A DNA stretch of 37,748 nucleotides from a virus: the IMG/VR virus record IMGVR_UViG_3300037882_000123, positions 1-37,748 of that record; one strand, given 5' to 3'. The stretch's first letter is position 1, and every line of letters begins with the position of its first letter. A program made the translations under genes and the position numbers. The notes beneath the pieces are model-generated. The model had not been told where the DNA came from. It did no database searches and was given only the letters and a program-made list of their open reading frames with translations. This document shows, piece by piece, positions 404 through 32,383 of this stretch.

Positions 404-622
404 ATGGCTAAAGATAAAATGGACATGGCTCAAGACAAGAAGATGGTCAAAAAAGCTGTTGGTATGCATGACAAACAAATGCACGGTGGTAAGAAAACTG
501 ACATGTCAGAACTTAAAAAAGGCGGTAAGGTTAAGAAAATGGCTACTGGCGGTATGTGTGGCGGTGGTAAGACTATGAAGAAAATGGCTACTGGTGGTAA
601 AACTAAAGGAAAGGTCTGCTAA
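404..622 (+). CDS. Small Lys/Gly/Met-rich basic protein with GGK repeats
   Basis: The product has 72 residues and is extremely basic and low in complexity. The N-terminal part is Lys/Met/Asp-rich. Residues 38-72 hold repeated KKMATGG units and the protein ends in GGKTKGKVC. I know of no assigned function. The closest match is to its own neighbours: the GGKxKKMAxGG unit and the GKTKG ending recur in the genes at 625, 1020 and (in part) 1305. It lies just after the holin-like gene. An overlapping reading from 390 in another frame is a shadow. The composition would suit nucleic-acid contact inside the capsid, but that is inference only. Confidence 0.7.
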   Translation: MAKDKMDMAQDKKMVKKAVGMHDKQMHGGKKTDMSELKKGGKVKKMATGGMCGGGKTMKKMATGGKTKGKVC

Positions 623-624
623 TC

Positions 625-1020
625 ATGGATAAAAGTCGTATGAGCCCATCAGATAAAATTGGGCCAAATTTTGATGTACCACGTAGGGCTTCACGTGTAG
701 ATAATAGTGACGGTTCTAAAGTAGGCCCAGATATGGGTAAAGTAAATAAACCAAAACCAAAAGCTAAACCAAAAGCTGCTATTAAAAAACTTAAAGATAC
801 AAGCGGTGACTACTATACTGCCAACGGTATTTCTGGTGATATGGGTTCAGCTTCAGGTGAAATGGGTGCTAATATGGGCCAGGTTAACAAAGGCGGTTAT
901 GACCCAGAAGAAGGTATGAAACGCGGTGGTAAAGTTAAAAAGATGGCTGGTGGCGGTTCTGCATCTAGTCGTGGTGACGGTTGCGCTCAACGCGGTAAAA
1001 CTAAAGGAAGGTTTGTATAA
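625..1020 (+). CDS. Basic Gly/Lys-rich small protein with C-terminal GKTKG cassette
   Basis: The product has 131 residues. It has a low-complexity N-terminal half with KPKPKAKPKAA (about 48-58), a Gly/Met-rich middle (SGDMGSASGEMGANMG) and a C-terminal cassette: KRGGKVKKMAGGG, then SASSRGDGC, then RGKTKGRFV. The cassette is nearly the same as the end of the next protein (TASSRADGCC, GKTKGKIC). It starts 2 bases after the previous stop and its TAA overlaps the next ATG (TAATG), so translation is probably coupled. No enzyme motif or membrane segment is visible. The function is unknown and a virion-associated role is only inferred from its place among structural genes. Confidence 0.72.
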   Translation: MDKSRMSPSDKIGPNFDVPRRASRVDNSDGSKVGPDMGKVNKPKPKAKPKAAIKKLKDTSGDYYTANGISGDMGSASGEMGANMGQVNKGGYDPEEGMKRGGKVKKMAGGGSASSRGDGCAQRGKTKGRFV

Positions 1021-1304
1021 TGGCTGATAAAAGTATATTAACAAAAGCTAAAGAAGCGATTATCGGTACTCCTGAACAGAATGCTGAAGCTACTACTAAA
1101 TTAAAAGCTATGAAATCATTTAGTCAACGTAAAGCAGAGCAAGACCAGGGTGAAGCTGAAAAATACTTCGGCCTTAAAAAAGGCGCGGGTGCTTCTTGGG
1201 ATGATAGTGATAAACCAGCTAAGAAAATGGCTAAGGGCGGTACAGCTTCATCACGCGCTGACGGTTGCTGCGTTAAAGGTAAAACTAAAGGAAAGATTTG
1301 CTAA
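1020..1304 (+). CDS. Basic small protein sharing the ASSRxDGC-GKTKG ending
   Basis: The product has 94 residues. Residues 1-60 look helical and charged (TKAKEAIIGTPEQNAEATTKLKAM and so on). Residues 66-94 form the shared cassette: KKMAKGGTASSRADGCC, then KGKTKGKIC. The start overlaps the upstream stop (TAATG at 1018-1022). The next gene starts immediately after the stop at 1305. I do not recognise a function. The helical body with a modular basic tail suggests that the tail is a reusable element shared by several proteins in this cluster. Confidence 0.72.
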   Translation: MADKSILTKAKEAIIGTPEQNAEATTKLKAMKSFSQRKAEQDQGEAEKYFGLKKGAGASWDDSDKPAKKMAKGGTASSRADGCCVKGKTKGKIC

Positions 1305-1649
1305 ATGAGAGCTTCTCGTGGTATGGGTAATATTAATCCTTCAAAGATGCCATCAGGCAAGAAAAAACCACGCCGTGATGACACGGACTTTACCGAGTTT
1401 AAAAAGGGTGGCAAGGTAAAAATGCCAAGCACCCCTAAAGCTCCTAAAGGCAAGAAGTACGCCGAAGGCGGTGAGGCTAAGTCTAAAGTCAATGAGGCTG
1501 GTAATTATACTAAACCTAGCAAACGAGAAGCACTGTTTAAAAGCATTAAAGCTTCTGCAACCCACGGTACAGCCGCAGGGCAATGGTCAGCACGTAAAGC
1601 ACAGTTACTAGCTAAACGATATAAAGAATCAGGTGGTGGGTATAAATGA
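1305..1649 (+). CDS. Basic small phage protein, hypothetical
   Basis: The product has 114 residues. The N-terminal half is low in complexity with KKGGKVKMPS, KAPKGKKYAEGGEAKSK and many Lys/Pro. The C-terminal half (about 63-114) looks folded: PSKREALFKSIKASATHG, then AAGQWSARKAQLLAKRYKESGGGYK, the type of Lys-rich helix seen in DUF5872-like phage proteins (recalled, not verified). It directly abuts the previous stop and overlaps the next start by 4 bases (ATGA). The antisense and shifted readings over this interval are shadows. The function is unknown. Confidence 0.72.
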   Translation: MRASRGMGNINPSKMPSGKKKPRRDDTDFTEFKKGGKVKMPSTPKAPKGKKYAEGGEAKSKVNEAGNYTKPSKREALFKSIKASATHGTAAGQWSARKAQLLAKRYKESGGGYK

Positions 1650-1897
1650 GTGCGTTAGCTAAAAGCCAAAAGTCGCTAAAAGCTTGGGGAGACCAGAAGT
1701 GGACTACCAAGTCGGGTAAAAAATCATCTGACACTGGTGAACGATACCTACCTGAAAAGGCGATTAAAGCACTTAGCCCAGCAGAATATGCAGCAACAAC
1801 TAAAGCCAAACGCGCAGGTAAAGCGGCAGGTAAACAATTTGTAGCACAGCCAGACAAGATTAAAAGCAAAGTTAAGCCCTTTAGAAAGGTAAAATAA
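1646..1897 (+). CDS. Basic small phage protein, hypothetical
   Basis: The product has 83 residues and is strongly Lys/Ala-rich. It contains SLKAWGDQKWTTKSGKKSS followed by GERYLPEKAIKALSPAEYAATTKAKRAGKAAGKQF and a basic end. The motif of W, T/S, KSGKKSS and then a YLP-x-KAI-x-L-x-P-x-EYA stretch is one I recall from proteins that accompany the preceding family in other phage genomes. It overlaps the upstream gene by ATGA (1646-1649), so the pair is probably co-translated. No catalytic residues are seen and the function is unknown. Confidence 0.72.
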   Translation: MSALAKSQKSLKAWGDQKWTTKSGKKSSDTGERYLPEKAIKALSPAEYAATTKAKRAGKAAGKQFVAQPDKIKSKVKPFRKVK

Positions 1898-2027: not shown

Positions 2028-2750
2028 ATGACAACTACAGCTACTACAGCGTTTAACTTAGATTTAAATGACCTCGTTGAAGAGGCTTTTGAGCGTTGTG
2101 GTTCAGAGCTACGTTCAGGTTATGATTTCCGTACAGCACGTCGTAGTTTAAACTTATTAACCATAGAATGGGCAAATCGTGGAATCAATTTATGGACTAT
2201 TGAACAGGGTCAGATTACTCTTACTACAGGAGTGGGAACATATAACTTACCTGTTGACACCATTGACTTACTAGACCACGTAATCAGAACCCAAGAAGGC
2301 ACGATACAACAAACTGATATTAATATTAACCGTATCTCAGAGTCTACCTATTCAACTATCCCAAACAAGTTAACACAGGGTAAACCAATTCAAGTATGGA
2401 TTAATCGACAGTCGGGAGCTACAACACCAAGTGGAATTAAGAACCCTCAAATCAATGTCTGGCCTACACCTAATGCTCCTGACGGGCAATATATTTTCGT
2501 TTATTGGCGCTTACGCAGATTACAGGATGCTGGCGATGGTGTTAATACTCAGGATATTCCATTCCGATTTTTGCCGTGTATGGTTGCGGGATTAGCTTAC
2601 TATCTAAGTATGAAGATTCCAGGTGTAGACCCTAGCCGCTCAATGGCACTTAAAGCAGACTACGAACAACAATTCCAACTTGCTGCAGAAGAAGACCGTG
2701 AGAAAGCGAGTATTCGTTTCGTGCCAAGGAATTTTTCATATACTAGATAA
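2028..2750 (+). CDS. Head-tail adaptor / tail accessory factor (P22 gp4-like)
   Basis: The product has 240 residues. Its N-terminal region reads LDLNDLVEEAFERCGSELRS, then YDFRTARRSLNLLTIEWANRGINLW, then a LTTGVGTYNLPVDTIDLL stretch. I recognise this pattern from podovirus tail accessory factors and head-to-tail joining proteins (P22 gp4 family). The C-terminal part holds a RFLPCMVAGLAYYLSMK helix and a long charged helix. It would sit below the portal ring and connect it to the tail. The start directly follows the small gene upstream. It is followed, out of frame, by an HNH endonuclease gene. Confidence 0.78.
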   Translation: MTTTATTAFNLDLNDLVEEAFERCGSELRSGYDFRTARRSLNLLTIEWANRGINLWTIEQGQITLTTGVGTYNLPVDTIDLLDHVIRTQEGTIQQTDININRISESTYSTIPNKLTQGKPIQVWINRQSGATTPSGIKNPQINVWPTPNAPDGQYIFVYWRLRRLQDAGDGVNTQDIPFRFLPCMVAGLAYYLSMKIPGVDPSRSMALKADYEQQFQLAAEEDREKASIRFVPRNFSYTR

Positions 2751-2751
2751 T

Positions 2752-3264
2752 ATGGCATTTAAAGATAAAAATAAGCAAAAAGAGTATGCACATCAATATT
2801 GGCTTGATAACAAAGCTAGTGAATCTGCACGTATTAAAGCATGGAAGGTAGCTAATAAAGAAAAACTTAAGCAACAAGCTAAAGAATATAACGAAAAAAA
2901 CTGTGAAAAAATAACGGAACAAAAACAAAAGTATTACTTGCGGATTAAAGAAAAACGCGCAGTCTATGCTAAAGAGTATGGTAAGAATAACTCTCATATT
3001 ATTAATAAAGCCTCCGCAAAACGTAAGGCATCTAAATTAGATAGAACACCATCATGGTTGACTGATGATGACTTATGGATTATTAATGAGATATATGATT
3101 TAGCGGCTAAGAGAACAAAAATGCACGGATTTAAATGGCACGTAGACCATATTATTCCCCTTCAGGGTAAGTTAGTTAGTGGATTACACGTCCCAGCTAA
3201 TATGCAAGTTATCTCAGCTACGGATAACCATAGAAAAAATAATAAGTATAAGGTAGCTATATAA
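2752..3264 (+). CDS. HNH endonuclease, free-standing
   Basis: The product has 170 residues from ATG 2752. An upstream in-frame ATG at 2680 would overlap the adaptor gene for 24 residues and is not preferred. Residues 1-95 form a basic, helical, repetitive region (units like NKEKLKQQAKEYNEKN). The HNH core is at 129-165: WHVDHIIPLQGKLVSGLHV, then N150 and a TDNHRKNN end, with H130, D132 and H133 in the beta-beta-alpha-metal motif. It probably cuts DNA as a homing or intron-type nuclease. Its place between two adaptor genes, with no role in virion building, fits a mobile homing gene. Confidence 0.85.
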   Translation: MAFKDKNKQKEYAHQYWLDNKASESARIKAWKVANKEKLKQQAKEYNEKNCEKITEQKQKYYLRIKEKRAVYAKEYGKNNSHIINKASAKRKASKLDRTPSWLTDDDLWIINEIYDLAAKRTKMHGFKWHVDHIIPLQGKLVSGLHVPANMQVISATDNHRKNNKYKVAI

Positions 3265-3669: not shown

Positions 3670-3846
3670 ATGGCTTATAAATCAGGCGCTGATGGCGTAA
3701 CTAAATCAGGCAAAACAAAAGGTAAGAACTTAGGTGACGACGGTAAAAAAGTTGGCATCCAATCAGGCAAAGGTTCAAAAGGCGTTTCATCTGACTCAAT
3801 GAAATCAGTGGGTCGTAACCTAGCTCGCGTAGCAAACCAAGGATAA
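3670..3846 (+). CDS. Small Lys/Gly/Ser-rich protein (58 aa)
   Basis: This gene was read directly: ATG 3670, TAA 3844-3846, 58 residues. It begins MAYKSGADGVTKSGKTKGKN and ends NLARVANQG. It is preceded by a clear AGGAG leader. The composition (Lys, Gly, Ser) and the SGKTKGKN motif tie it to the GKTKG proteins at 404-1304. No fold or function is recognised. The strong ribosome site suggests a high-copy product, possibly packaged in the virion, which is inference. Confidence 0.68.
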   Translation: MAYKSGADGVTKSGKTKGKNLGDDGKKVGIQSGKGSKGVSSDSMKSVGRNLARVANQG

Positions 3847-3850
3847 TATA

Positions 3851-4198
3851 ATGGCTAAGAATGATTTTGTGAAAGCAACACCAGCTGACTCCTATCCATT
3901 AGGACATGCTAAAGAAAACAAAGACGCTAGTGCGTATACGGACTTTAAATATCCGTCAGGCGGTGGCAATGATATTGGTGTGTACAAGCAACCAATGAAC
4001 AACACTTACAGCTCAGACATTAATGACAGCGTTAACCCAAACTCTCGTGCGGCTAAAGATGTAGGTCCTTCAACACGTGCTATGAATGTTAGTATTGGTG
4101 ATAGCGGTGCTAACCGTGTTAATCCACATGGTGTTGGCGAGATGCGTGGTTATGGCGCTGCTACTAAAGGCCGCAAGATTAGTGGAAAAATGGGCTAA
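3851..4198 (+). CDS. Hypothetical structural-cluster protein
   Basis: The product has 115 residues. It is polar, rich in Asn, Ser, Gly and Asp, with no membrane segment, and ends in a basic tail (MRGYGAATKGRKISGKMG). The ending again recalls the Gly/Lys tails of the cluster at 404-1304. The stop overlaps the next ATG (TAATG). I recognise it only as a recurrent neighbour of the adaptor gene in similar phages. It is probably disordered. The function is unknown. Confidence 0.66.
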   Translation: MAKNDFVKATPADSYPLGHAKENKDASAYTDFKYPSGGGNDIGVYKQPMNNTYSSDINDSVNPNSRAAKDVGPSTRAMNVSIGDSGANRVNPHGVGEMRGYGAATKGRKISGKMG

Positions 4199-15950: not shown

Positions 15951-18900
15951 ATGGATGTGCGGATGCCAGATGGCACGGTTATTACTAACGTTCCTGATAA
16001 CATAACCCAAACTGAATTACTTGCTAGGTTTAATAAGTTTAACGCTCCTAAGATTGAAACTGCGGGTGTTGGTGAAGCCCTTAGAGGAGGTGCTAAACGT
16101 ACGCTTGGTTCTATGGAGACTGGCCTATCTAGTTTGTTTGGCGCTGAAGAAGCCGCTAAAGCAGGTCAAGCACGTCAAGAAGCTATCACTGAAAAGTCTG
16201 GTGCTAGTCTAGAAAAAGTCAAACAAGTTTACGGCGAGAAAGGTTTACTTCCTGCCGCTCGTGAAGTCCTTAGTCAAATCCCAAGTGCTGTTGCAGAACA
16301 AGCCCCTAACTTAGCCGCTACTCTAGGCAGTGCACGACTTGGCGCTATGGCTGGTTCAATGTTTGGCCCTGCTGGTACAGTAATTGGCGGTTTAGGCGGT
16401 GCTTTTCTTCCATCATTAGTTCAGCAAACAGGTACAAACTTAGAACGCCAAGCACAAGAAGGTAAACCTATTTCAGGTAGTGGTGCATTAGGCGCTGCTG
16501 TTCCTCAAGCCGCTTTAGATGTATTCACTGACAAGCTGTTGTTCGGTAAGTTAATGGGTATCCCTGCTAAGTCCTTAGGACGTGCTGAAGCTGATGCTGT
16601 TGTAGCCCAATCATTAAAACGAACACTCGCTGAAGGTACATTAAAAGGCGTTGCTGCCGAAGTCCCTACTGAAGTTGCACAACAAATGCTTGAGCGTTAT
16701 CAAGCTGGTCTATCTCTAACTGATGAAGAAGCTCGCAAAGAATATGCAGATACTATATATCAAACAGCATTACTCGGCCCATTAGGTGCGGTAGGTAAAT
16801 TCCAAGAACGTGGTGAAGCTAAACAAGTTATAGCACAAGATGAAGCGGCACAAGCACAAGCTGCTCAACAAGCACAGCGCCGTGCTACTGGGGTAATGGA
16901 CCAACAACCGCTATTCACTCCACAAGAAGCACCTGTTCAAGAACAACTAACACCTGAAGTAGCGCCTATCTCAACGGTAGTACCAGAACCAACCACTACC
17001 CCACCAACTTTTGGCTTCAATGATGAAGGTAAGTTTGTTAATGAGCCAGCGCCAGAAGTCTCTCCAGACCAAGGGGATTTGTTTACTCGTAAAGGTGCAC
17101 CCACTAAAGATGCTTTGGCAAGTGTAGAAGCCGCTCGTCTTCAAGGTCTTCCAGATAAAATCCAAGAATTACTACAAACCCCCGAAGGCCGTGCAGAACT
17201 TGCGGGTAATATAAAAATGTACTTCCCTGATTTAGATGTCAAGGAAAGAAACAAAACTCGTCAAGCAATTCAACAAGGCACTTATGGGGTAGAACCTGTA
17301 GCTCCTGCTGAAGGAACATTGACTCCTGAGATACTAAAAACGTTTGGTATCACACCACGTAGCAAACAATACAAAGCGTTAGAGGGTGGCAATTTAGCTG
17401 ACCCAACAACGTATAACTTACTTACAGTAGCGGCAGCAACTAATACTGACTTTGGTGTTAAAGCTAACCGTATCTTAGAAGCATTTCCTCAATACAAACC
17501 AGCAGAGGTAGTCAATGAGCAACCTCAACCGCAAGATGTCCAACCAGACCTCTTTGGTGTTCAACCGAACGGAATACCAGATACTACTGAGCAACAAGGA
17601 ACTGAGCAAGGCGTGGGAATGCCTGTTCAACCAGCAGAAACCACGCCTGAAGAAGCTCCAGAACCTGTCGGACCAAGAGTGGATGGTGATAGTGGAGTAC
17701 CTAAATCAGACGTTGGAGCAGTTAGACCAAGCACAACGGGACAACCAAGTGCACTAGCACCTGTACCAAAAAAAGTTGCGCGCGATGCCGCAGCTGCATT
17801 AAAGAAAGAGCCTGTTGCGGTTACATGGGGTTTCTTTAGTGATACTCCATTTGCTAAATTATCTAAAATTGCTAAAGATAAAGTAAAAGACGCTCATGCT
17901 CAAGGGTACTTAAACCAAGAACTTGCAGATGAGATTGAACGTATTGAAGCAGGTAATGCTCGTGCTACTGCCGCAGGTAAAGCAATCACACCTGAAACTC
18001 CACTAGACGACACGCCAGTACAAGGGCTTACAGCTGAAGCAGCGGCATTGCCAGACATTGAAGCGCCATTATTACTAACTGAAAATAAACAAATTGAAGA
18101 TTTAAAAAACAAGTCTGTATTAGAAGTGGCTAAATGGTTTTCTACGAATGCACCTAGTAAATCATATCGCATTATCGCTAACATACTGGCTAAGAGATTT
18201 GCTGAGTTTGAAAAAGCTGGGGCAACATATTCGTTTAAACTTACAAATACATTAAAGGGCGGAACCAGAGGGCAATGTAATACAAGCATAGACAACCGTA
18301 CAGGAGAGCTAGAGGTTAAGGTATCCATCCAAGATAGCAGCGTTGGAAAAACATACGAAGTAGTTTTACATGAACTAATTCATGCGGGAGTAGATTCCGC
18401 TATTGGGGTTGCTCAATTAGCAAGAAAAAGAGGTAAAACAATTCCTGGCTACGCTAAATATGTTGACCAAATATCAGCTGTAGCAAAAGAAACAAAGAAA
18501 GTAATTGGACAACGTGTTGCTAACGGAACCGCAAATGAATTTGAGATTAGAGCATATGCAAAAAATAACAATGCGTTTGCTAATGAATTTGAATTTGTAA
18601 CATGGGGATTAACTAACCCAGACATGCAAGCTACGTTAGAATCAATTCCAATGGGTACACAGGGTAAAACCTTATGGTCTGAATTCGTTACTGTCATTCG
18701 TAACTTATTAGGTATCCCTGCATCCGCAAATACAGCTTTATCAGAATTATTATCTGCTAGTGAAGGGTTATTAAATACACCTTATACTGATATTAAAGGC
18801 GCAATATCCCAGTACAGTTCTATAACTTCAAATCAAATTAACCCTCAAGCACAGGCTCAAGCACAGCAGTTCATCGCTGGTATGTCAGGTACACTTGCAC

Positions 18901-21473
18901 GTTCAGTACCAACACAAACAACCACACCAGCTCAAGCCGCGCAGAACTTTGTGAATACTGTTTATCGCAACCCTACTGATGCACTGGGTATGATTGAGAG
19001 TATGGCTAATAGAATTCGTACCAGTGCAATTGATAAGGCGGCGCATTTATCTGCATCTATTCAAGACCATATGGACGGCGCATTCTATGATGTTAACGGT
19101 CAAATGCGAGCTGACTTAAAACTAAGTGCGGCAAACAATCAAAACAACTATATCAATGCCGTATTTACGTTTGGTGATATTGATATCCTACCTAATGGTG
19201 CGATTAAAGTTAAACAAGGTACCCATAGCGTTGATAACATTTTCCGCCATGCTAAGACTTTAGCTGACCGTATCGGTGTAGAGCAGATGCGCGAATTAGT
19301 AACAGGCGTGTTCTACCACTACCGTGCCAAAGCAATTATTGATAACGTACCACCAGACCAATGGCCTGAGAACTGGCGAAAAGACCCACGCATGGTGCCA
19401 ACACAAGCGCAAATCAATGCGGCTATGGCAGCGTTTAATGCTGTCCCTGAACTACGCGCTATGCAAACTGAGTTTATTGGTTCTAAGAATCAAATGGTTA
19501 AGTTCCTTCGTAAGGCTGGGTTCCTATCTAAAGATAAAGCAGATGCCTTCTTAAAAGATGACTCATACGCACCGTGGTTACGATTGAAAGAATACCAAGA
19601 CACAATTCCTGGACTTGGTAACATGGGTAAGATGGTTGACTTGAGTCAGATGAAAGCCCTTGTCGGTGGCACAGAAGAAGTTAACGACATGCTTGAGAAC
19701 ATGTCACAGATGATTGGCTGGTGTGTACGTTCAGGCATCTCTAACCATACGGCTAACAGTGCACTCGACACGATGTCCAGTATGGGTACAGCAGTGCGTC
19801 ACGCAGGTCGTCCAGGGTCTGGTAACCCAGCTCACGTTGTTATGACTTATGTTGATGGTAAGCCTACGTTCTGGACTGTTGATAATCCATATGACCTAGC
19901 GGCCTTCCAATCAGTTAAAGGTTTGAACAGTCCTGTTATGAGGGCTATAGGCAAAGGGCTAGGTACGCTACGTGCTGGTATTGTTTTATTCCCTGCCTTC
20001 CCATTACGTCAAGTAGTTATGGACTCGCAACGTGCGTTTGTAGAAGCTGGTGTTAAGAATCCTTGGTCTATGGTTGGTAAGATTTACTCATCATTCCTAT
20101 CAGGCGAAGCGTTCCGTGGTGAACACCAAGACATTCAAAAACTAATGCAACACGGTGTAGTTGGTGGTGCTGACTTTACTGCGATGGATACTACACGTGG
20201 TCGTGCTACTCAGTTTGGAATTGGTGAAGAAGCTAAAACGATTACTGATAAATGGGTACGTAGCCCAGCATATAACTTCTTGCACAAACTAGCTTACAGT
20301 GCCGACCTAGCAGTGCGTTTAGGTATCTATAGACAAACACTAGAAGAAACAGGTGATGAAACACTTGCCGCTACTAAAGCCCGTGAGATTATCAACTTCC
20401 AAAAGGCTGGCACAAGTGAGAGAATGCACATGTTAAAACAAACTATCCCGTTCTTAGGTGCGTATCTACAAGGTATGGATGTTAACTATAAAGGTATGGT
20501 TGGTCGTGGTAACTCTATGCAGTCTCGTAAAGCTGCCGCTAAAGCATACTGGGGTAACATGGCGATGTACGCTGGGCTTACTATTGCATACACAATGGCG
20601 ATGTCAGGTGACGATGAGTACGAAGACCAAAAAGGCTATGTGACTGACCACAACTTCTTAATTCCTGGTGGTGGGTTACTTCCTATCCCGCCTGATGTAG
20701 GCTTCTTGGCTAAAGTAGTACCAGAACGCATTACGGATTACATACTGCAGGAAGGCACTGATAGTCCTGAGTCTGCCAAACGCCTACGTCAAGGGTTACT
20801 ACAATCGTTTGCTGCTGGGTATATGCCACCAGCCGCGGTGTATGGCGTGACACCTACTATTGAGTTAATGCTTAATAAGAGTTTCTTCTCAGACATGCCG
20901 ATTGTTAGTCAGCGTATGCAAGGTCTAGACCCTAGGTTCCAGTACACAGCAAGCACAAGTGAGATAGCTAAAGAGATTGGTGATATTACAGGGCAGTCTC
21001 CACTACAGATTGACTACTTGTTTAATGCAATTGGTGGTACATCTGCTGGTGCGTTACTACAATTAACTGATGTTGCGTTTGGTAGTGGCAAGATGGCTCC
21101 AGATAAGACACCTATTATTGGTTCATTCCAACAAAAAACTGTTGGCGGTCGTAATGCTGAAGAATACTATGCGCTTCGTGAGATGGCTGATAGAGCGTAC
21201 AACACAGTACAGGCATTGGCATTGGAACAAAATCCTGAGAAGCTACAAGCGTATTTGGCTGACCCTAAAAAGCAACAGTTATATGCGATGCACCAAGGGA
21301 TTGAATCACTACATGCTCAACTAAATCAGGTAAGTCGTATCCGTAACATAATCGAAAAAGACCCTAACCTCTCACCAGAAGAGAAGCGTCAAAAGGTTAA
21401 CGAGTTATTAGCAAACGTGGAAGCTACGTTGCGAGCGATGCCGATACGAAAACAAAGAGCGGAATTAGAATAA
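15951..21473 (+). CDS. Giant internal virion protein with HELIH metallopeptidase and LPD38-like region
   Basis: The product has 1840 residues. The N-terminus reads MDVRMPDGTVITNVPDNITQ. Residues about 105-150 form a Gly/Ala hydrophobic stretch (LGAMAGSMFGPAGTVIGGLG). A Pro/Gln-rich linker covers about 300-390 and 520-620. HELIHAGVD at 807-815 is a gluzincin-type zinc site, and an FANEFEFVTWGLTNPDMQ segment further on supplies a plausible third ligand Glu. Residues about 1250-1450 contain AFPLRQVVMDSQRAFVEAG and resemble the LPD38 region of large polyvalent phage proteins. It would be injected with the DNA, and the peptidase may act on host wall or protein (inference). It ends the plus-strand arm. 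Confidence 0.75.
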   Translation: MDVRMPDGTVITNVPDNITQTELLARFNKFNAPKIETAGVGEALRGGAKRTLGSMETGLSSLFGAEEAAKAGQARQEAITEKSGASLEKVKQVYGEKGLLPAAREVLSQIPSAVAEQAPNLAATLGSARLGAMAGSMFGPAGTVIGGLGGAFLPSLVQQTGTNLERQAQEGKPISGSGALGAAVPQAALDVFTDKLLFGKLMGIPAKSLGRAEADAVVAQSLKRTLAEGTLKGVAAEVPTEVAQQMLERYQAGLSLTDEEARKEYADTIYQTALLGPLGAVGKFQERGEAKQVIAQDEAAQAQAAQQAQRRATGVMDQQPLFTPQEAPVQEQLTPEVAPISTVVPEPTTTPPTFGFNDEGKFVNEPAPEVSPDQGDLFTRKGAPTKDALASVEAARLQGLPDKIQELLQTPEGRAELAGNIKMYFPDLDVKERNKTRQAIQQGTYGVEPVAPAEGTLTPEILKTFGITPRSKQYKALEGGNLADPTTYNLLTVAAATNTDFGVKANRILEAFPQYKPAEVVNEQPQPQDVQPDLFGVQPNGIPDTTEQQGTEQGVGMPVQPAETTPEEAPEPVGPRVDGDSGVPKSDVGAVRPSTTGQPSALAPVPKKVARDAAAALKKEPVAVTWGFFSDTPFAKLSKIAKDKVKDAHAQGYLNQELADEIERIEAGNARATAAGKAITPETPLDDTPVQGLTAEAAALPDIEAPLLLTENKQIEDLKNKSVLEVAKWFSTNAPSKSYRIIANILAKRFAEFEKAGATYSFKLTNTLKGGTRGQCNTSIDNRTGELEVKVSIQDSSVGKTYEVVLHELIHAGVDSAIGVAQLARKRGKTIPGYAKYVDQISAVAKETKKVIGQRVANGTANEFEIRAYAKNNNAFANEFEFVTWGLTNPDMQATLESIPMGTQGKTLWSEFVTVIRNLLGIPASANTALSELLSASEGLLNTPYTDIKGAISQYSSITSNQINPQAQAQAQQFIAGMSGTLARSVPTQTTTPAQAAQNFVNTVYRNPTDALGMIESMANRIRTSAIDKAAHLSASIQDHMDGAFYDVNGQMRADLKLSAANNQNNYINAVFTFGDIDILPNGAIKVKQGTHSVDNIFRHAKTLADRIGVEQMRELVTGVFYHYRAKAIIDNVPPDQWPENWRKDPRMVPTQAQINAAMAAFNAVPELRAMQTEFIGSKNQMVKFLRKAGFLSKDKADAFLKDDSYAPWLRLKEYQDTIPGLGNMGKMVDLSQMKALVGGTEEVNDMLENMSQMIGWCVRSGISNHTANSALDTMSSMGTAVRHAGRPGSGNPAHVVMTYVDGKPTFWTVDNPYDLAAFQSVKGLNSPVMRAIGKGLGTLRAGIVLFPAFPLRQVVMDSQRAFVEAGVKNPWSMVGKIYSSFLSGEAFRGEHQDIQKLMQHGVVGGADFTAMDTTRGRATQFGIGEEAKTITDKWVRSPAYNFLHKLAYSADLAVRLGIYRQTLEETGDETLAATKAREIINFQKAGTSERMHMLKQTIPFLGAYLQGMDVNYKGMVGRGNSMQSRKAAAKAYWGNMAMYAGLTIAYTMAMSGDDEYEDQKGYVTDHNFLIPGGGLLPIPPDVGFLAKVVPERITDYILQEGTDSPESAKRLRQGLLQSFAAGYMPPAAVYGVTPTIELMLNKSFFSDMPIVSQRMQGLDPRFQYTASTSEIAKEIGDITGQSPLQIDYLFNAIGGTSAGALLQLTDVAFGSGKMAPDKTPIIGSFQQKTVGGRNAEEYYALREMADRAYNTVQALALEQNPEKLQAYLADPKKQQLYAMHQGIESLHAQLNQVSRIRNIIEKDPNLSPEEKRQKVNELLANVEATLRAMPIRKQRAELE

Positions 21474-26585: not shown

Positions 26586-28151
26586 TTATTCAGTCTTATC
26601 AGATAATATGTTGTTATACAAATCAATCAGTTGGTTATGAGAGTCAACCTTACCATTCAGCATGGTATACATATGGCTTTCCGCAGGGCTACCTTGAATC
26701 ATAATTACAGTAACTTTGTGGTCTTGCCCCTTACGATGCGCACGTGCATTTGCCTGTAGGTAGGTCTCAACGCTTGACGTAGGACCAAACCAAACTACGG
26801 TGTTCGCCGCGGTCAATGTAATTCCATGTGCCGCCGCTTGTGGTTGGATAATCAATACACGAGGGTCGGGTAGTTCTTGGAAGTTCTGAATATGCGTAGC
26901 GCGTTTGTTAGCCGATACTGCTCCGTTAATTACTGCACAGGTTATTTTCTTTTTAGTTAGAAACTGTTCTATCACTTCAATCGTATGAGTAAACGGTGCA
27001 AACACAATAACTTTCTTTAGGCTCTCGTCAATCACAGCCTCTAGTTCTGCCAAGCGGTTACTGATATCAAAGTATAGCGGAGCGCCATCATCAGAATATA
27101 CTGCGCCGCATGAGATTTGTAATAACTTGTTTAGCTTTGCCGCCGCATTGACTGCACTTACCGATTCACCAGCCGCTTCAATAAGCAATTGTTTACGTAG
27201 TACTTGGTAGTACTTCTCTTGTTGTGGGGTCATTGGAACCTCACGTGTTTCGTATGTGATGTCAGGTAAGTCTAGGCATTCTTCTTTAGTAAATCGGATA
27301 GCTGGTTGTAATGCTTTGAACACAATGTCTTTCGCACGTGGGCGTGGTATCCATTTAAACGTACTAATCTTTTGCATCACTAGGTCTTTCCAACCGCTTA
27401 CAAATGCTGGTACGTTTTGTGGGCTGACTAACTTAGCTAACCCATACGCATCTTCAGGGGATTGTGCCGCTGGTGTACCTGTCATTAACACTAGGCGTGT
27501 CTCAGGTTTAACTAGATGTTTAAACGCTTTCCATCTACGTGTCTGTGTAGACTTTAAAGCATTGGCTTCGTCCACGATGATACAGTCAAAGTTAGCATCT
27601 TTTAATTCTTGTAGCACAATCTCAATGCCGTCAAAGTTTAGTATGACAAACTCGTAGTTGCCTTCAATGACAGTACGACGTGATTTGGGTGTGCCATGTG
27701 CAATGCCTACTGAACGATGGGGTAGGACTTGGAATAAATCGCGTTGCCATGCAGCTTTCATAATAGACAATGGGCAGACGACTAGCACTCGTTTAACCTT
27801 ACCTTTGGTCATCAAGTAGTCTACTGCCCATGCCGCGCTTGCTGTCTTACCTACACCTTGCTCGTTGAAAACAAAGCACTTCTGATTATTAACAATAAAC
27901 CCAGCTGTCTCTTTTTGGTGAGCCATTGGTTTGAATTTACCAGCCCATCTATATTCTTTATCAATAACAGATGGTACTTTCTTTAATCCTAGTTTAGTTA
28001 GGGCTACAGTATTATCATAGTCCCACTTAACCATCAGTTCATATATCCCTTCGGATACTTCGCCTAGGTTTACACTGCTTGGGATTACATCGGTAAATCG
28101 TTTTGGGTTTCTTACTGTTACTAATAATGCTTTGTTATCTACTATCTCCAT
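26586..28151 (-). CDS. SNF2-family DEAD-like helicase/translocase
   Basis: The product has 521 residues. Motif I is FNEQGVGKTAS (95-105), motif II IVDEAN (192-197), motif III LMTGTP (222-227), motif V QPQAAAHGITL (436-446) and motif VI QANARAHRKGQ (466-476). This is the classic two-lobe SF2/SNF2 ATPase that translocates on duplex DNA. The protein is short for the family and lacks added chromatin domains, as in phage versions. It follows an HNH gene and two PD-(D/E)XK nucleases, suggesting a recombination or replication-fork repair unit. It overlaps the HNH stop by one base (TAATG). Confidence 0.9.
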   Translation of the reverse strand: MEIVDNKALLVTVRNPKRFTDVIPSSVNLGEVSEGIYELMVKWDYDNTVALTKLGLKKVPSVIDKEYRWAGKFKPMAHQKETAGFIVNNQKCFVFNEQGVGKTASAAWAVDYLMTKGKVKRVLVVCPLSIMKAAWQRDLFQVLPHRSVGIAHGTPKSRRTVIEGNYEFVILNFDGIEIVLQELKDANFDCIIVDEANALKSTQTRRWKAFKHLVKPETRLVLMTGTPAAQSPEDAYGLAKLVSPQNVPAFVSGWKDLVMQKISTFKWIPRPRAKDIVFKALQPAIRFTKEECLDLPDITYETREVPMTPQQEKYYQVLRKQLLIEAAGESVSAVNAAAKLNKLLQISCGAVYSDDGAPLYFDISNRLAELEAVIDESLKKVIVFAPFTHTIEVIEQFLTKKKITCAVINGAVSANKRATHIQNFQELPDPRVLIIQPQAAAHGITLTAANTVVWFGPTSSVETYLQANARAHRKGQDHKVTVIMIQGSPAESHMYTMLNGKVDSHNQLIDLYNNILSDKTE

Positions 28152-28426
28152 TACTTACCTTTCTTTTCTCCTTTGTGATGGAGATTTTTCTTTTCGTTTG
28201 CGGCAACTGAAACAAGTTTCAAGTTACCTTTAGTAGTTTTGCCACCCGCTTCAAGCGGTTTTATGTGGTCTATCTGTTTACCTTTACGGTCGATTCCAAG
28301 TTTATCATACATCCGACGGGCTTTCGCACGTTCGGTATTCTTTTTATTTTCACCAGTTTTCTTTTGGTATTCCCATTCGCGTTTCCATTCAGGGTCGCCT
28401 TTGGGTAAGTTTGGTTTTCTAGGCAT
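28151..28426 (-). CDS. Small HNH endonuclease
   Basis: The product has 91 residues. The N-terminus is basic (MPRKPNLPKGDPEWKREWEY). IDHIKPLEAGGKTTKGNLKL and ANEKKN (about 52-82) make an HNH core with D-H as the first catalytic pair, the middle Asn, and a last N-x3-N/K end. It lies between the nuclease and helicase genes and overlaps both (TAATG with the helicase, 8 bases with the upstream gene), so it is integrated in the operon. It could be a homing nuclease or a resident DNA-processing enzyme. Confidence 0.82.
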   Translation of the reverse strand: MPRKPNLPKGDPEWKREWEYQKKTGENKKNTERAKARRMYDKLGIDRKGKQIDHIKPLEAGGKTTKGNLKLVSVAANEKKNLHHKGEKKGK

Positions 28427-30067: not shown

Positions 30068-31910
30068 ATCTTTTCCCCGAACCTACTTCGCAATCTAATG
30101 GTAAATCTTTAGCCCATGCTGGTGGTGTACGCATCATCTGTGTGATGTATGTCTTTGCTTCTTCCACTTCACCATCAGGTACCACACATATTACCTCATC
30201 ATGTACCAACCCTGCAACCCAATACTTTTTGTTAATGTTGATAGTATGTTCTGCCATAATGTCACGTGCTAGGCTTTGTGTTACACGTTGGAAAACCTTT
30301 GAGCCGTACACTTTATCTTTCATCGTTGCACGACCACGGCGCACATCATAATGCCACTCGTTCCCTTTAGCCCCCAAGCTCTCAGTCAAGTTAGGGTATG
30401 GTAGCGACAAGCCATTAGGTTTAATAATCCCAGCTGAACCAAGCACAGGTAAGAAGTCATACACAGTATGCGACTCGTTGTTCTTAATCCACTCCAGTAC
30501 ATACCCACCTTCGCGCCACGCATCAGCAACGTTAGTATTCTTATCACGATACAAAGTCTTTAAGCGTTCTGCTTCATTAGCTGATACGGTTGTCTTGCCC
30601 TTGCTTTGGATACGGATTGTTTCACGTAGCTTGACTGCCCCTGTACCATAGATAAGTGATAGGCAGCAGACCTTTGCAATGAACCGTTCGTTACTGTCTT
30701 TACCAATCTTTTTGTAGTCTAAGTTAAACGCCTCAGATGCAAATACTTTATACAAGTCCATACCATCGTTAATCTGTTGTATCGCATCGTGTTGTCCAGC
30801 AAGCCACATACCTAGTCGTAACTCAATGTTACTCAAGTCAGCTACTACTAGCTGGTGTCCATCGGGTGCCATGATTGCTTTACGTAGTGTCGAACCATGT
30901 GGTAAGTTCTGTGGGTTAGTATCAAAGCCCGACCAGCGGTGGGTAATCATCGCCCCTGAGTATTTCAATGAGAACGGATATGTACCACGTGCGGCAATGT
31001 CTGCATATGATTCTGTTCTTGTCTCACCGATGGTCGACTTGTTAGCCAAGCGCGTTGCTACTAGGGTAGCAATCATCGGGTCTTCGCTGTCCATGAGGTC
31101 TGTAAACTCCTCGTCGGTCTTAGCGAATGCCCATGCTTCCTTGCCTGTCTTGTCACTAATCTTAGTAGGCGGTTCAACACCACGTGACTTGAGTAACTCT
31201 GCAAACTTGTCGTTGCTCATCAATTGTTTCTTGAGGGTGTCCTCATTCTTAACACCTAGTAAGTTCATCATGGTTACTAACGAACCACGCTTGTCTGCAC
31301 GAATCTGCATCAAGTCATCCACCAATAGCTTCTCGTCTAGTTCTAGGATAGGCTCGGCAAACATACGGATAGTCAAATCAACCACGCGTAGTTCTGTCTT
31401 AGGGAAGTTAGGTAGCATTTTGTTAAACACGTTATAACAAATCTCTACGTCATGTTTACAGTAGACACCATAGTCCTCAAGCTCTAGTGGTGAGAAGTCC
31501 TTGCGATGGTAGCCAATGTACTGCTTGACCTGTTCACCCTTGTCTTCTTCACCATAGACCTTAGCTAAGTTAGCTAGGCTTACAGATTGTTCTAGTCCGT
31601 GGATAGCCATCGCCATGCTCATCGTATCCAAGTAGCCTACGGGTTTAATTCCGAATCGCCAATTGAGGATAGCTGCATCGAATGCTGTGTTCTGTGCAAG
31701 CATAAGGTGGTCGCCCCACGGTAGTGAGTCGAGGTGTGCCTTAAGTTCTTTATACGTACCTGACACCCACACAATCGGACCGTCATCAACCTTAGTAGCT
31801 ACACCAATCACTTCAAACTGTTTGCTACGCACATACTCTTCGGTTGTAATCTTTGATAGCGAAAAGTCTTTGTCGTAATAGGTTTCTATATCAACCGTAA
31901 TGTACTTCAT
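30051..31910 (-). CDS. DNA polymerase I (family A) with 3'-5' exonuclease
   Basis: The product has 619 residues. Exonuclease DEDDy: D7 and E9 (TVDIETY), D78 (NTAFDAA), Y150 and D154 (YCKHDVEI). Polymerase motif A is VVADLSNIELRLG (D358, E363), motif B is R409-x3-K413 up to Y421-G (RFIAKVCCLSLIYG) and motif C is VHDEV (570-574). The residue at the E. coli Phe762 place is Leu417. No 5' nuclease domain is present. It replicates the phage genome with the primase-helicase. Its GGGGAG ribosome site lies inside the last codons of the upstream HNH gene. Confidence 0.95.
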   Translation of the reverse strand: MKYITVDIETYYDKDFSLSKITTEEYVRSKQFEVIGVATKVDDGPIVWVSGTYKELKAHLDSLPWGDHLMLAQNTAFDAAILNWRFGIKPVGYLDTMSMAMAIHGLEQSVSLANLAKVYGEEDKGEQVKQYIGYHRKDFSPLELEDYGVYCKHDVEICYNVFNKMLPNFPKTELRVVDLTIRMFAEPILELDEKLLVDDLMQIRADKRGSLVTMMNLLGVKNEDTLKKQLMSNDKFAELLKSRGVEPPTKISDKTGKEAWAFAKTDEEFTDLMDSEDPMIATLVATRLANKSTIGETRTESYADIAARGTYPFSLKYSGAMITHRWSGFDTNPQNLPHGSTLRKAIMAPDGHQLVVADLSNIELRLGMWLAGQHDAIQQINDGMDLYKVFASEAFNLDYKKIGKDSNERFIAKVCCLSLIYGTGAVKLRETIRIQSKGKTTVSANEAERLKTLYRDKNTNVADAWREGGYVLEWIKNNESHTVYDFLPVLGSAGIIKPNGLSLPYPNLTESLGAKGNEWHYDVRRGRATMKDKVYGSKVFQRVTQSLARDIMAEHTININKKYWVAGLVHDEVICVVPDGEVEEAKTYITQMMRTPPAWAKDLPLDCEVGSGKRYGNAK

Positions 31911-32383
31911 TTGTATGTCTCCCCTCGCACTATTAAGCTAATGCATCGTTGAGATACTCCGTATTCTTTTGCTAATGGCACTTGATATTCTCCGTGGTTA
32001 TATCTATCTCTTATCGTAGTTACTTGCTCTACTGTAAGTTTTGCATTTGTATGTGCGGCACCTTTATATGAAGTGCGACGTTGTTTTTTAAAAGCGTCTT
32101 TCTGATTGTCCGTGTAGGTACCTAAGAAAAAATGGTCAGGGTTACAGCATTTACGGTTGTCGCATTTATGCAGTATATGGGTAGGTTCGCGTGACGAATG
32201 CGGTGCAGCGGGTGATGTTACTAACCCACTAATCCATGCCGCTACTCTATGTGCTGTATAAACTTTACCATCCCACGCAACAGTACCATACCCCGTGTTG
32301 TTGCATGAACCTTGCCATTCCCAACACCCATCCTGTTTTGTAACCTTACTCCAAAAAGATTCCGCCGTTTGCTTCTTACTCAT
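31907..32383 (-). CDS. HNH_3 homing endonuclease with C-terminal HTH
   Basis: The product has 158 residues. CWEWQGSCNNTGYGTV (20-35), a HRVAAW strand-helix (45-50), HKCDNRKCCNPDHFFLGT (72-89) and DNQKDA are the HNH_3 zinc/catalytic core. KLTVEQVTTIRDRYN (115-129) followed by AKEYGVSQRCISLIV is an HTH like those in homing nucleases. Its stop overlaps the polymerase ATG (ATGA) and its last codons carry the polymerase SD. It is probably a homing gene that settled beside polA, a common target in phages. Confidence 0.88.
   Translation of the reverse strand: MSKKQTAESFWSKVTKQDGCWEWQGSCNNTGYGTVAWDGKVYTAHRVAAWISGLVTSPAAPHSSREPTHILHKCDNRKCCNPDHFFLGTYTDNQKDAFKKQRRTSYKGAAHTNAKLTVEQVTTIRDRYNHGEYQVPLAKEYGVSQRCISLIVRGETYK

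Follow-up and report, generated by a model that had tools for sequence, protein, structure and literature searches.

The virus record IMGVR_UViG_3300037882_000123 of IMG/VR, whose full 37,748 bases form the window analyzed here, encodes near its start a cluster of five small genes (named below, like other genes of the window, by their first position: 404, 625, 1020, 1305, and 1646). The products of 625 and 1020 end in the same cassette, and we found this cassette to be a separable C-terminal tag under protein-level selection, attached to unrelated proteins among the head genes of aquatic podophages. By analogy with known systems, we propose that the tag is a putative targeting signal that would load variable cargo into the procapsid, a reading to which we give a probability of about one half.

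The key test of the cassette used a hidden Markov model (HMM) of the tail built without any sequence of the window. It matched 1020 (44.6 bits, E = 5e-14) and 625 (40.4 bits, E = 2e-12) at their exact C termini, confirming that the similarity pointed out in the original prediction is real. Among real open reading frames (ORFs), 784 score at least 20 bits, a value reached by no reversed ORF (best 14.8 bits; 7 matches at 12 bits or more), and the maximum over 31,527 shuffled ORFs was 6.7 bits. Further copies were sought with a degenerate nucleotide pattern encoding R[AG]DGxxx[RKQ]GKT[KR]G, of which the distance to the stop codon is not part. In IMG/VR, the pattern matched at least 120 stretches, and single contigs contained up to four of the matches listed. 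It also matched 31 stretches in bacterial and archaeal genomes (257 billion bases), only some of them with a true tail, and these mostly in contigs of metagenome-assembled genomes (MAGs) bearing the same phage genes. The tag is present in hundreds of viral contigs and is thus no peculiarity of this genome.

The consensus of about 25 residues is GGxVSSAS[KS]RADG[IC]Ax[RK]GKT[KR]G[KR]-hydrophobic-[VIC]-stop, one variant being ARGGGIEVRGKTKG..., and in 186 of 227 retrieved proteins exactly 3 residues separate the motif from the stop. The invariance of R.DG and GKT in this set is partly imposed by the search pattern itself. The same residue preferences appear in 80 loci retrieved via phrog_14910 and not via the tag, 57 of which are tagged, all on the strand of the anchor; these include the variants GHT and GRT and a shorter end, GKTRA. 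A minority form, found in many loci (e.g., L198, L218, and L401), extends 8 to 15 residues further, to an end such as GGxxC. A tag fused to an acyltransferase-like ORF in a Patulibacter MAG contig (L220, JALRCL010000652.1, around positions 162 to 260) was set aside as a probable chimeric assembly, because it lies near the contig end, where the G+C content is lower.

The bodies that precede the tag are extremely diverse. Retrieved tagged proteins with bodies of at least 30 residues form 120 single-linkage clusters at E = 1e-4, a count inflated by short, low-complexity bodies. Because of this inflation, pairs of tagged proteins from the same contig provide a stronger test, and none of the 52 pairs has similar bodies at E < 1e-3. 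In an alignment of 120 tagged proteins, nearly all of them cluster representatives, the mean column identity is 7% and conservation is confined to the tail. Used as queries, 625 and 1020 each recovered one locus with a close full-length relative, the other matches covering mostly little beyond the tail. These results bear out the view of the original prediction that different bodies carry the same tail, and two cases give strong support to its idea of shuffling. DUF6321 proteins occur in an untagged form, ending in ..RAWKC or ..RAWNC, and in a tagged form extended at the same point (e.g., ..RAWNC-AEGGYVNSADGVAQRGKTRGKMY), with body identities of up to 98% between the two. The body of 1020 has the tag described above (class 1) in the window and a tag of a second class (class 2, ARGGGIEVRGKTKGK) in locus L273, where it reads ARGGGCEVRGKTKGKMV.

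Codon use argues for selection on the protein. At identical tag residues, the same codon is used in 50% of the comparisons within a contig and in 46% of those between contigs matched for GC, and therefore across the set the tags are not fresh copies of DNA. This conclusion rests on the collection and not on the closer pair of the window, in which 625 and 1020 use the same codon at 89% of the few comparable residues. The amino acid identity of tags within a contig is 79%, compared with 70.9% in shuffles (standard deviation 1.4%; 0/2000), which fits adaptation to one partner.

The genomic context of the tag is largely constant. In large relatives, the gene order is TerL, portal, GroES-like, scaffold-like (phrog_28737), phrog_36003, a further gene, capsid protein, variable genes, DUF6321, a membrane/coiled-coil protein, the tagged cluster, phrog_17747, phrog_14910, SU10-type adaptor, Zn-ribbon-like, 3670-like, 3851-like, and connector, with local variations. 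Nearly all tagged loci (341 of 345) have homologs of this head module. Matches occur in 19 large contigs, each with all of its matches inside one stretch of a few kilobases and none among the replication genes. The capsid protein links these phages to Planktothrix phage Pag-Yong1, Pelagibacter phages HTVC023P and HTVC027P, and Roseobacter phages CRP-901/902, among others. Pag-Yong1, whose tag was found only through a scan of its region, encodes a protein of 308 residues with a class-1 tag (UMO75986, ending in RYASGGMIGRDGCAKRGRTKGRFI) between its capsid and adaptor genes. Three of the records retrieved with the capsid protein (OL906435, OQ594354, and PP438419) are recorded for different cyanobacterial hosts, have the same length (65,014 each) and equal search scores, and may be one phage.

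Within this constant context, the tagged bodies change fast. One to six tagged genes are present in 59 of the 64 distinct loci that extend 2.5 kb or more upstream of phrog_14910. When the adaptors of two loci are 85 to 95% identical, homologs in the other locus exist for only 33% of the tagged bodies versus 98% of the core neighbors, and at 55 to 65% adaptor identity the shares are 20% versus 97%; sharing is somewhat underestimated here, the loci being limited stretches, and the core genes compared are nearer to the anchor.

A constant terminal peptide, changing bodies, a location among the head genes, and a single cluster per genome therefore favor recruitment to the procapsid via a common partner. 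The C terminus, basic and probably unstructured, would be recognized after translation by a single phage component that all these genomes encode, for which the scaffold-like protein phrog_28737, the portal, and the capsid protein are candidates. Before DNA is packaged, this receptor would draw each tagged protein into the procapsid irrespective of the body, and the protein would then be carried in the virion and delivered together with the genome. The bodies could be swappable cargo, e.g., anti-defense, takeover, or DNA-organizing proteins. Among the roles initially suggested, capsid packaging or sorting is hence the best-supported class of explanation, while DNA condensation is possible and not specifically supported.

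Similar solutions are known from other phages. The capsid-targeting sequence (CTS) of T4 is N-terminal and proteolytically processed. The present tag resembles it in being a short conserved terminal peptide on diverse small head-associated proteins, and differs in being C-terminal, unrelated in sequence, and from podophages, for which packaging of the tagged proteins is a proposal. The internal proteins of T4 are a diverse set sharing only the CTS (PMC3012670). In P1, about 30 N-terminal residues of DarB are enough for a foreign protein to enter the capsid; this N terminus has been compared with the T4 CTS, and the signal has no consensus shared with other Dar proteins (PMC9024508). DarB is one large protein with an N-terminal signal, whereas the tag is C-terminal and common to many proteins. 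Because of its C-terminal position and because no sequence relation was found, the tag would work like a CTS without being a member of the T4 or P1 CTS families.

Several points weigh against procapsid loading. Neither the PDB nor the open-access literature yielded virion proteomics or a solved structure for a tagged protein, and, the unexplained DUF6321 apart, the tagged proteins are without known functions. The receptor is at the candidate stage only, and no separate prohead protease gene was recognized in the head module. The greater likeness of tags within a contig could reflect shared history, and the basic charge would fit nucleic acid binding as well. In this last alternative, the tail would be a basic peptide that condenses the packaged genome, as protamines do, or that binds phage transcripts, with no specific protein receptor. 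The net charge of about +7 over 30 residues, the interchange of K and R at positions -9, -5, and -3, and the median isoelectric point (pI) of 9.5 of the bodies are consistent with it. However, the motif keeps D, G, T, and its distance to the stop as constant as its charges, and although whole tagged proteins are mostly basic, about a quarter of the bodies, including that of 1020 (Table 1), have a pI below 8.3. We regard this explanation as rather unlikely. The term "basic tag" used in the original prediction is thus too loose on its own.

The tag could also be a docking peptide acting outside the cargo space, by which minor structural or head completion proteins are held to the adaptor, the portal, or the surface of the capsid. 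This would suit the position of the tagged genes, with the capsid gene on one side and the adaptor and connector genes on the other, and one tagged family has an N-terminal module of 40 residues in common with PHROGs labeled virion structural protein. Yet the bodies change faster than their structural neighbors, unlike typical minor structural proteins, which makes docking unlikely. It seems improbable that the tag is a sorting, chaperone recognition, or stability signal acting within the infected cell and unrelated to the virion: the same evidence of modularity would apply and a GroES-like gene is a regular member of the module, but the tagged genes are confined to the head block, with none found among the replication genes of the 19 large contigs that have matches.

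The end of the tag-coding sequence has an additional role, evident from codon use and not foreseen in the original prediction: the final codons also serve as the ribosome-binding site of the next gene. The tag codons AAA-GGA-AAG/AGG lie 8 to 10 bases 5' of the starts of 625, 1020, and 1305, and the stop of 625 overlaps the start of 1020 (TAATG). GGA or GGG encodes the last Gly in 273 of 391 tagged genes whose successor starts at most 4 bases from the stop or overlaps it, compared with 7 of 44 when the successor starts at least 8 bases later (Fisher p = 4e-12); when counting one gene per contig, the values are 71% and 17%. These codons make up 3% at the Gly of GKT and 22% in the bodies. Positions -5 to -3 are not fixed by the search pattern and have [KR], G, and [KR] in 99, 99, and 97% of the tags with an abutting successor versus 96, 85, and 88% of those with a distant one. 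Since these residues are kept in both groups, the ribosome-binding site adds to the protein motif and does not explain it. As a sole explanation, the lack of any protein signal, with the gene end conserved as a ribosome-binding site or as a recombination hotspot copied between genes, would account for the strong Shine-Dalgarno bias of the last codons but is very improbable and largely refuted, because conservation reaches upstream to SAS-RADG, beyond the ribosome-binding site, because [KR]-G-[KR] is kept before distant successors while GGA/GGG drops to 16%, and because synonymous codons differ between copies. Under procapsid loading, the embedded ribosome-binding site would keep the cluster translated in series regardless of the cargo upstream, and the tag-coding end would thus be a natural joint for gene swapping.

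A third class of tag, with the consensus [SR]GGGAAxRGTKFxGV[KF]-stop, occurs in HTVC023P-type and related phages. The cultured phage HTVC023P has two proteins with this tag, QGZ17661 and QGZ17680, the latter ending in SRGGGAAVRGMGFKGVF. Among the matches listed, the class-3 motif is separated from the stop by exactly 2 residues in 83 of 89 proteins, and homologs of the head module occur in all 94 loci, including the portal in 81. The C-terminal carriers form at least 22 body clusters. Class 3 thus resembles class 1 in being C-terminal on unrelated small bodies and in having homologs of the same portal or head module, and differs in its consensus. Proteins similar to 3851 end in RGTGAATKGTKARGPMA or similar. 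By its sequence, class 2 looks intermediate between classes 1 and 3, and a common origin of the classes is suggested by inspection by eye and weak HMM scores only, which do not prove descent.

In the window, the five ORFs described in the original prediction are all present, with neighbors abutting or overlapping, and are very basic as claimed (predicted pI of 10.1, 10.0, 9.5, 10.4, and 10.4, in gene order). The cassette had been traced further than it extends: 404, 625, and 1020 are the tag carriers, and 1305, thought to have a part of it, scores only 8.4 bits with the tail HMM and is, like 1646, a conserved untagged neighbor. The partial cassette of 404 is better described as an eroded copy of a class-2 tag, since close relatives end in AKGGGIEVRGKTKGKVC and GIEVR was lost in the window copy. 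The motif SGKTKGKN assigned to 3670 is indeed similar to the tag, but it lies near the N terminus. Short proteins like 3670 occur in many of these phages and are possibly relatives or donors of the tag. In L097 and L384, hybrid proteins have a tag that reads on into 3670-like sequence (GKTKGKNLGDSGPNVGIQSG), suggesting exchange between the two.

Table 1. Features of the window related to the tag and its neighborhood.
Feature	Position	Strand	Evidence and remarks
DUF6321 protein, truncated by contig start	3..197	+	PF19846, E=1.3e-23; untagged in window, tagged in many relatives
Small basic protein, 72 residues	404..622	+	Member of a family that recurs across these phages, with 133 matching ORFs among retrieved loci
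Eroded class-2 tag of 404, KKMATGGKTKGKVC	578..619	+	Alignment; relatives have KKMAKGGGIEVRGKTKGKVC
Shine-Dalgarno-like AAAGGAAAGG in tag codons of 404	605..614	+	10 bases 5' of the start of 625
Tagged variable protein, 131 residues	625..1020	+	Close body relative in one other locus, L351
Class-1 C-terminal tag of 625, protein ending KRGGKVKKMAGGGSASSRGDGCAQRGKTKGRFV	937..1017	+	Profile, E=3.2e-12
Shine-Dalgarno-like AAAGGAAGG in tag codons of 625	1003..1011	+	8 bases 5' of the start of 1020
Tagged variable protein, 94 residues	1020..1304	+	Body pI 6.2; full-length relative only in L273
Class-1 C-terminal tag of 1020, protein ending KKMAKGGTASSRADGCCVKGKTKGKIC	1221..1301	+	Tail profile
Shine-Dalgarno-like AAAGGAAAG in tag codons of 1020	1287..1295	+	9 bases 5' of the start of 1305
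Conserved untagged neighbor, phrog_17747	1305..1649	+	E=5.2e-25; present in 308/345 tagged loci
Conserved untagged neighbor, phrog_14910	1646..1897	+	E=3.2e-33; tag-independent anchor for locus retrieval
SU10-type adaptor (PF24175), module core gene	2028..2750	+	E=2.6e-11; present in 311/345 tagged loci
Short conserved protein, tag-like motif at 3688-3726 near N terminus	3670..3846	+	Motif ADGVTKSGKTKGKN; 15.1 bits, E=1.7e-4
Protein with class-3-tag-like C terminus at 4142-4195, MRGYGAATKGRKISGKMG	3851..4198	+	12.7 bits, weak; absent from the original prediction

Scans of the 120 tagged proteins against Pfam, PHROGs, and NCBIfam gave no profile matching the tail, and their bodies matched only DUF6321, PHROGs that are unnamed or labeled virion structural (the latter via the N-terminal module), and, weakly, one NCBIfam profile. 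The tail profile found nothing meaningful among PDB sequences. Searches of cultured phages by tblastn with the tail consensus, 625, and 1020 gave no usable match, but such short queries are insensitive and this is not evidence of absence. Open-access literature searched for the motif letters, DUF6321, and Pag-Yong1 returned nothing relevant; an earlier mention may exist elsewhere. The end of T7 gp14 (AAKGTKTGR) is similar at first look, yet neither tail HMM matches any T7 ORF in the stretch examined, and we discarded this resemblance. The letters DGIAQRGKT fit the Walker A motif (P-loop) of nucleoside triphosphatases (NTPases), GxxxxGK[ST], yet the protein stops no more than 9 residues further on, the Lys is variable (GRT in Pag-Yong1, GHT in other variants), and no match to an NTPase family was obtained; we rejected this reading. 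The tag or motif is mostly coil in AlphaFold models of 1020 and 3670, whose mean predicted local distance difference test scores of 57.9 and 60.5 indicate a low confidence that makes them not decisive.

Other observations concern the rest of the window and its relatives. The gene at 12962-14128 matches phrog_4287, a DNA ejection protein, and is apparently fused in frame with the next gene in L253 and L255; its C terminus is weakly tail-like (13 bits), a lead that we rejected as its homologs are without the GKT part. The protein of 1,840 residues encoded at 15951-21473 looks like a large ejected or polyvalent protein; it has, by eye, a zincin-type metallopeptidase motif (HELIHAG), and its sole match is phrog_9854, of unknown function. 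Three short genes resemble HNH endonucleases by eye (2680-3264, 28151-28426, and 31907-32383), and one such gene has been inserted after the adaptor gene and before the Zn-ribbon-like gene. L047 (3324-4271) and related ORFs share an N-terminal module of about 43 residues (MPSKSAKQHRFMEMVAHNPKMAKKVGVPQSVG..., phrog_16759) with PHIKZ165.1 of phiKZ and 124 cultured phage records; this module also occurs fused to PHROGs labeled virion structural protein and is possibly another movable tag.

We tentatively suggest, with less confidence than for procapsid loading by the tag, that a large group of aquatic podophages may use at least three related C-terminal address peptides as a general code to load fast-evolving accessory proteins into virions, the tag-coding end doubling as the next ribosome-binding site and making each tagged gene a plug-in unit. 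The overlap between address peptide and ribosome-binding site would explain how members of the clusters are swapped without a breakdown of translation. If the tag does load proteins into virions, about a hundred unannotated families of small proteins of common aquatic phages would become predicted virion cargo, readable from their last 25 residues. This would provide a way to find delivered anti-defense or takeover proteins in uncultured phages, and possibly a C-terminal handle by which reporters could be placed in phage heads.
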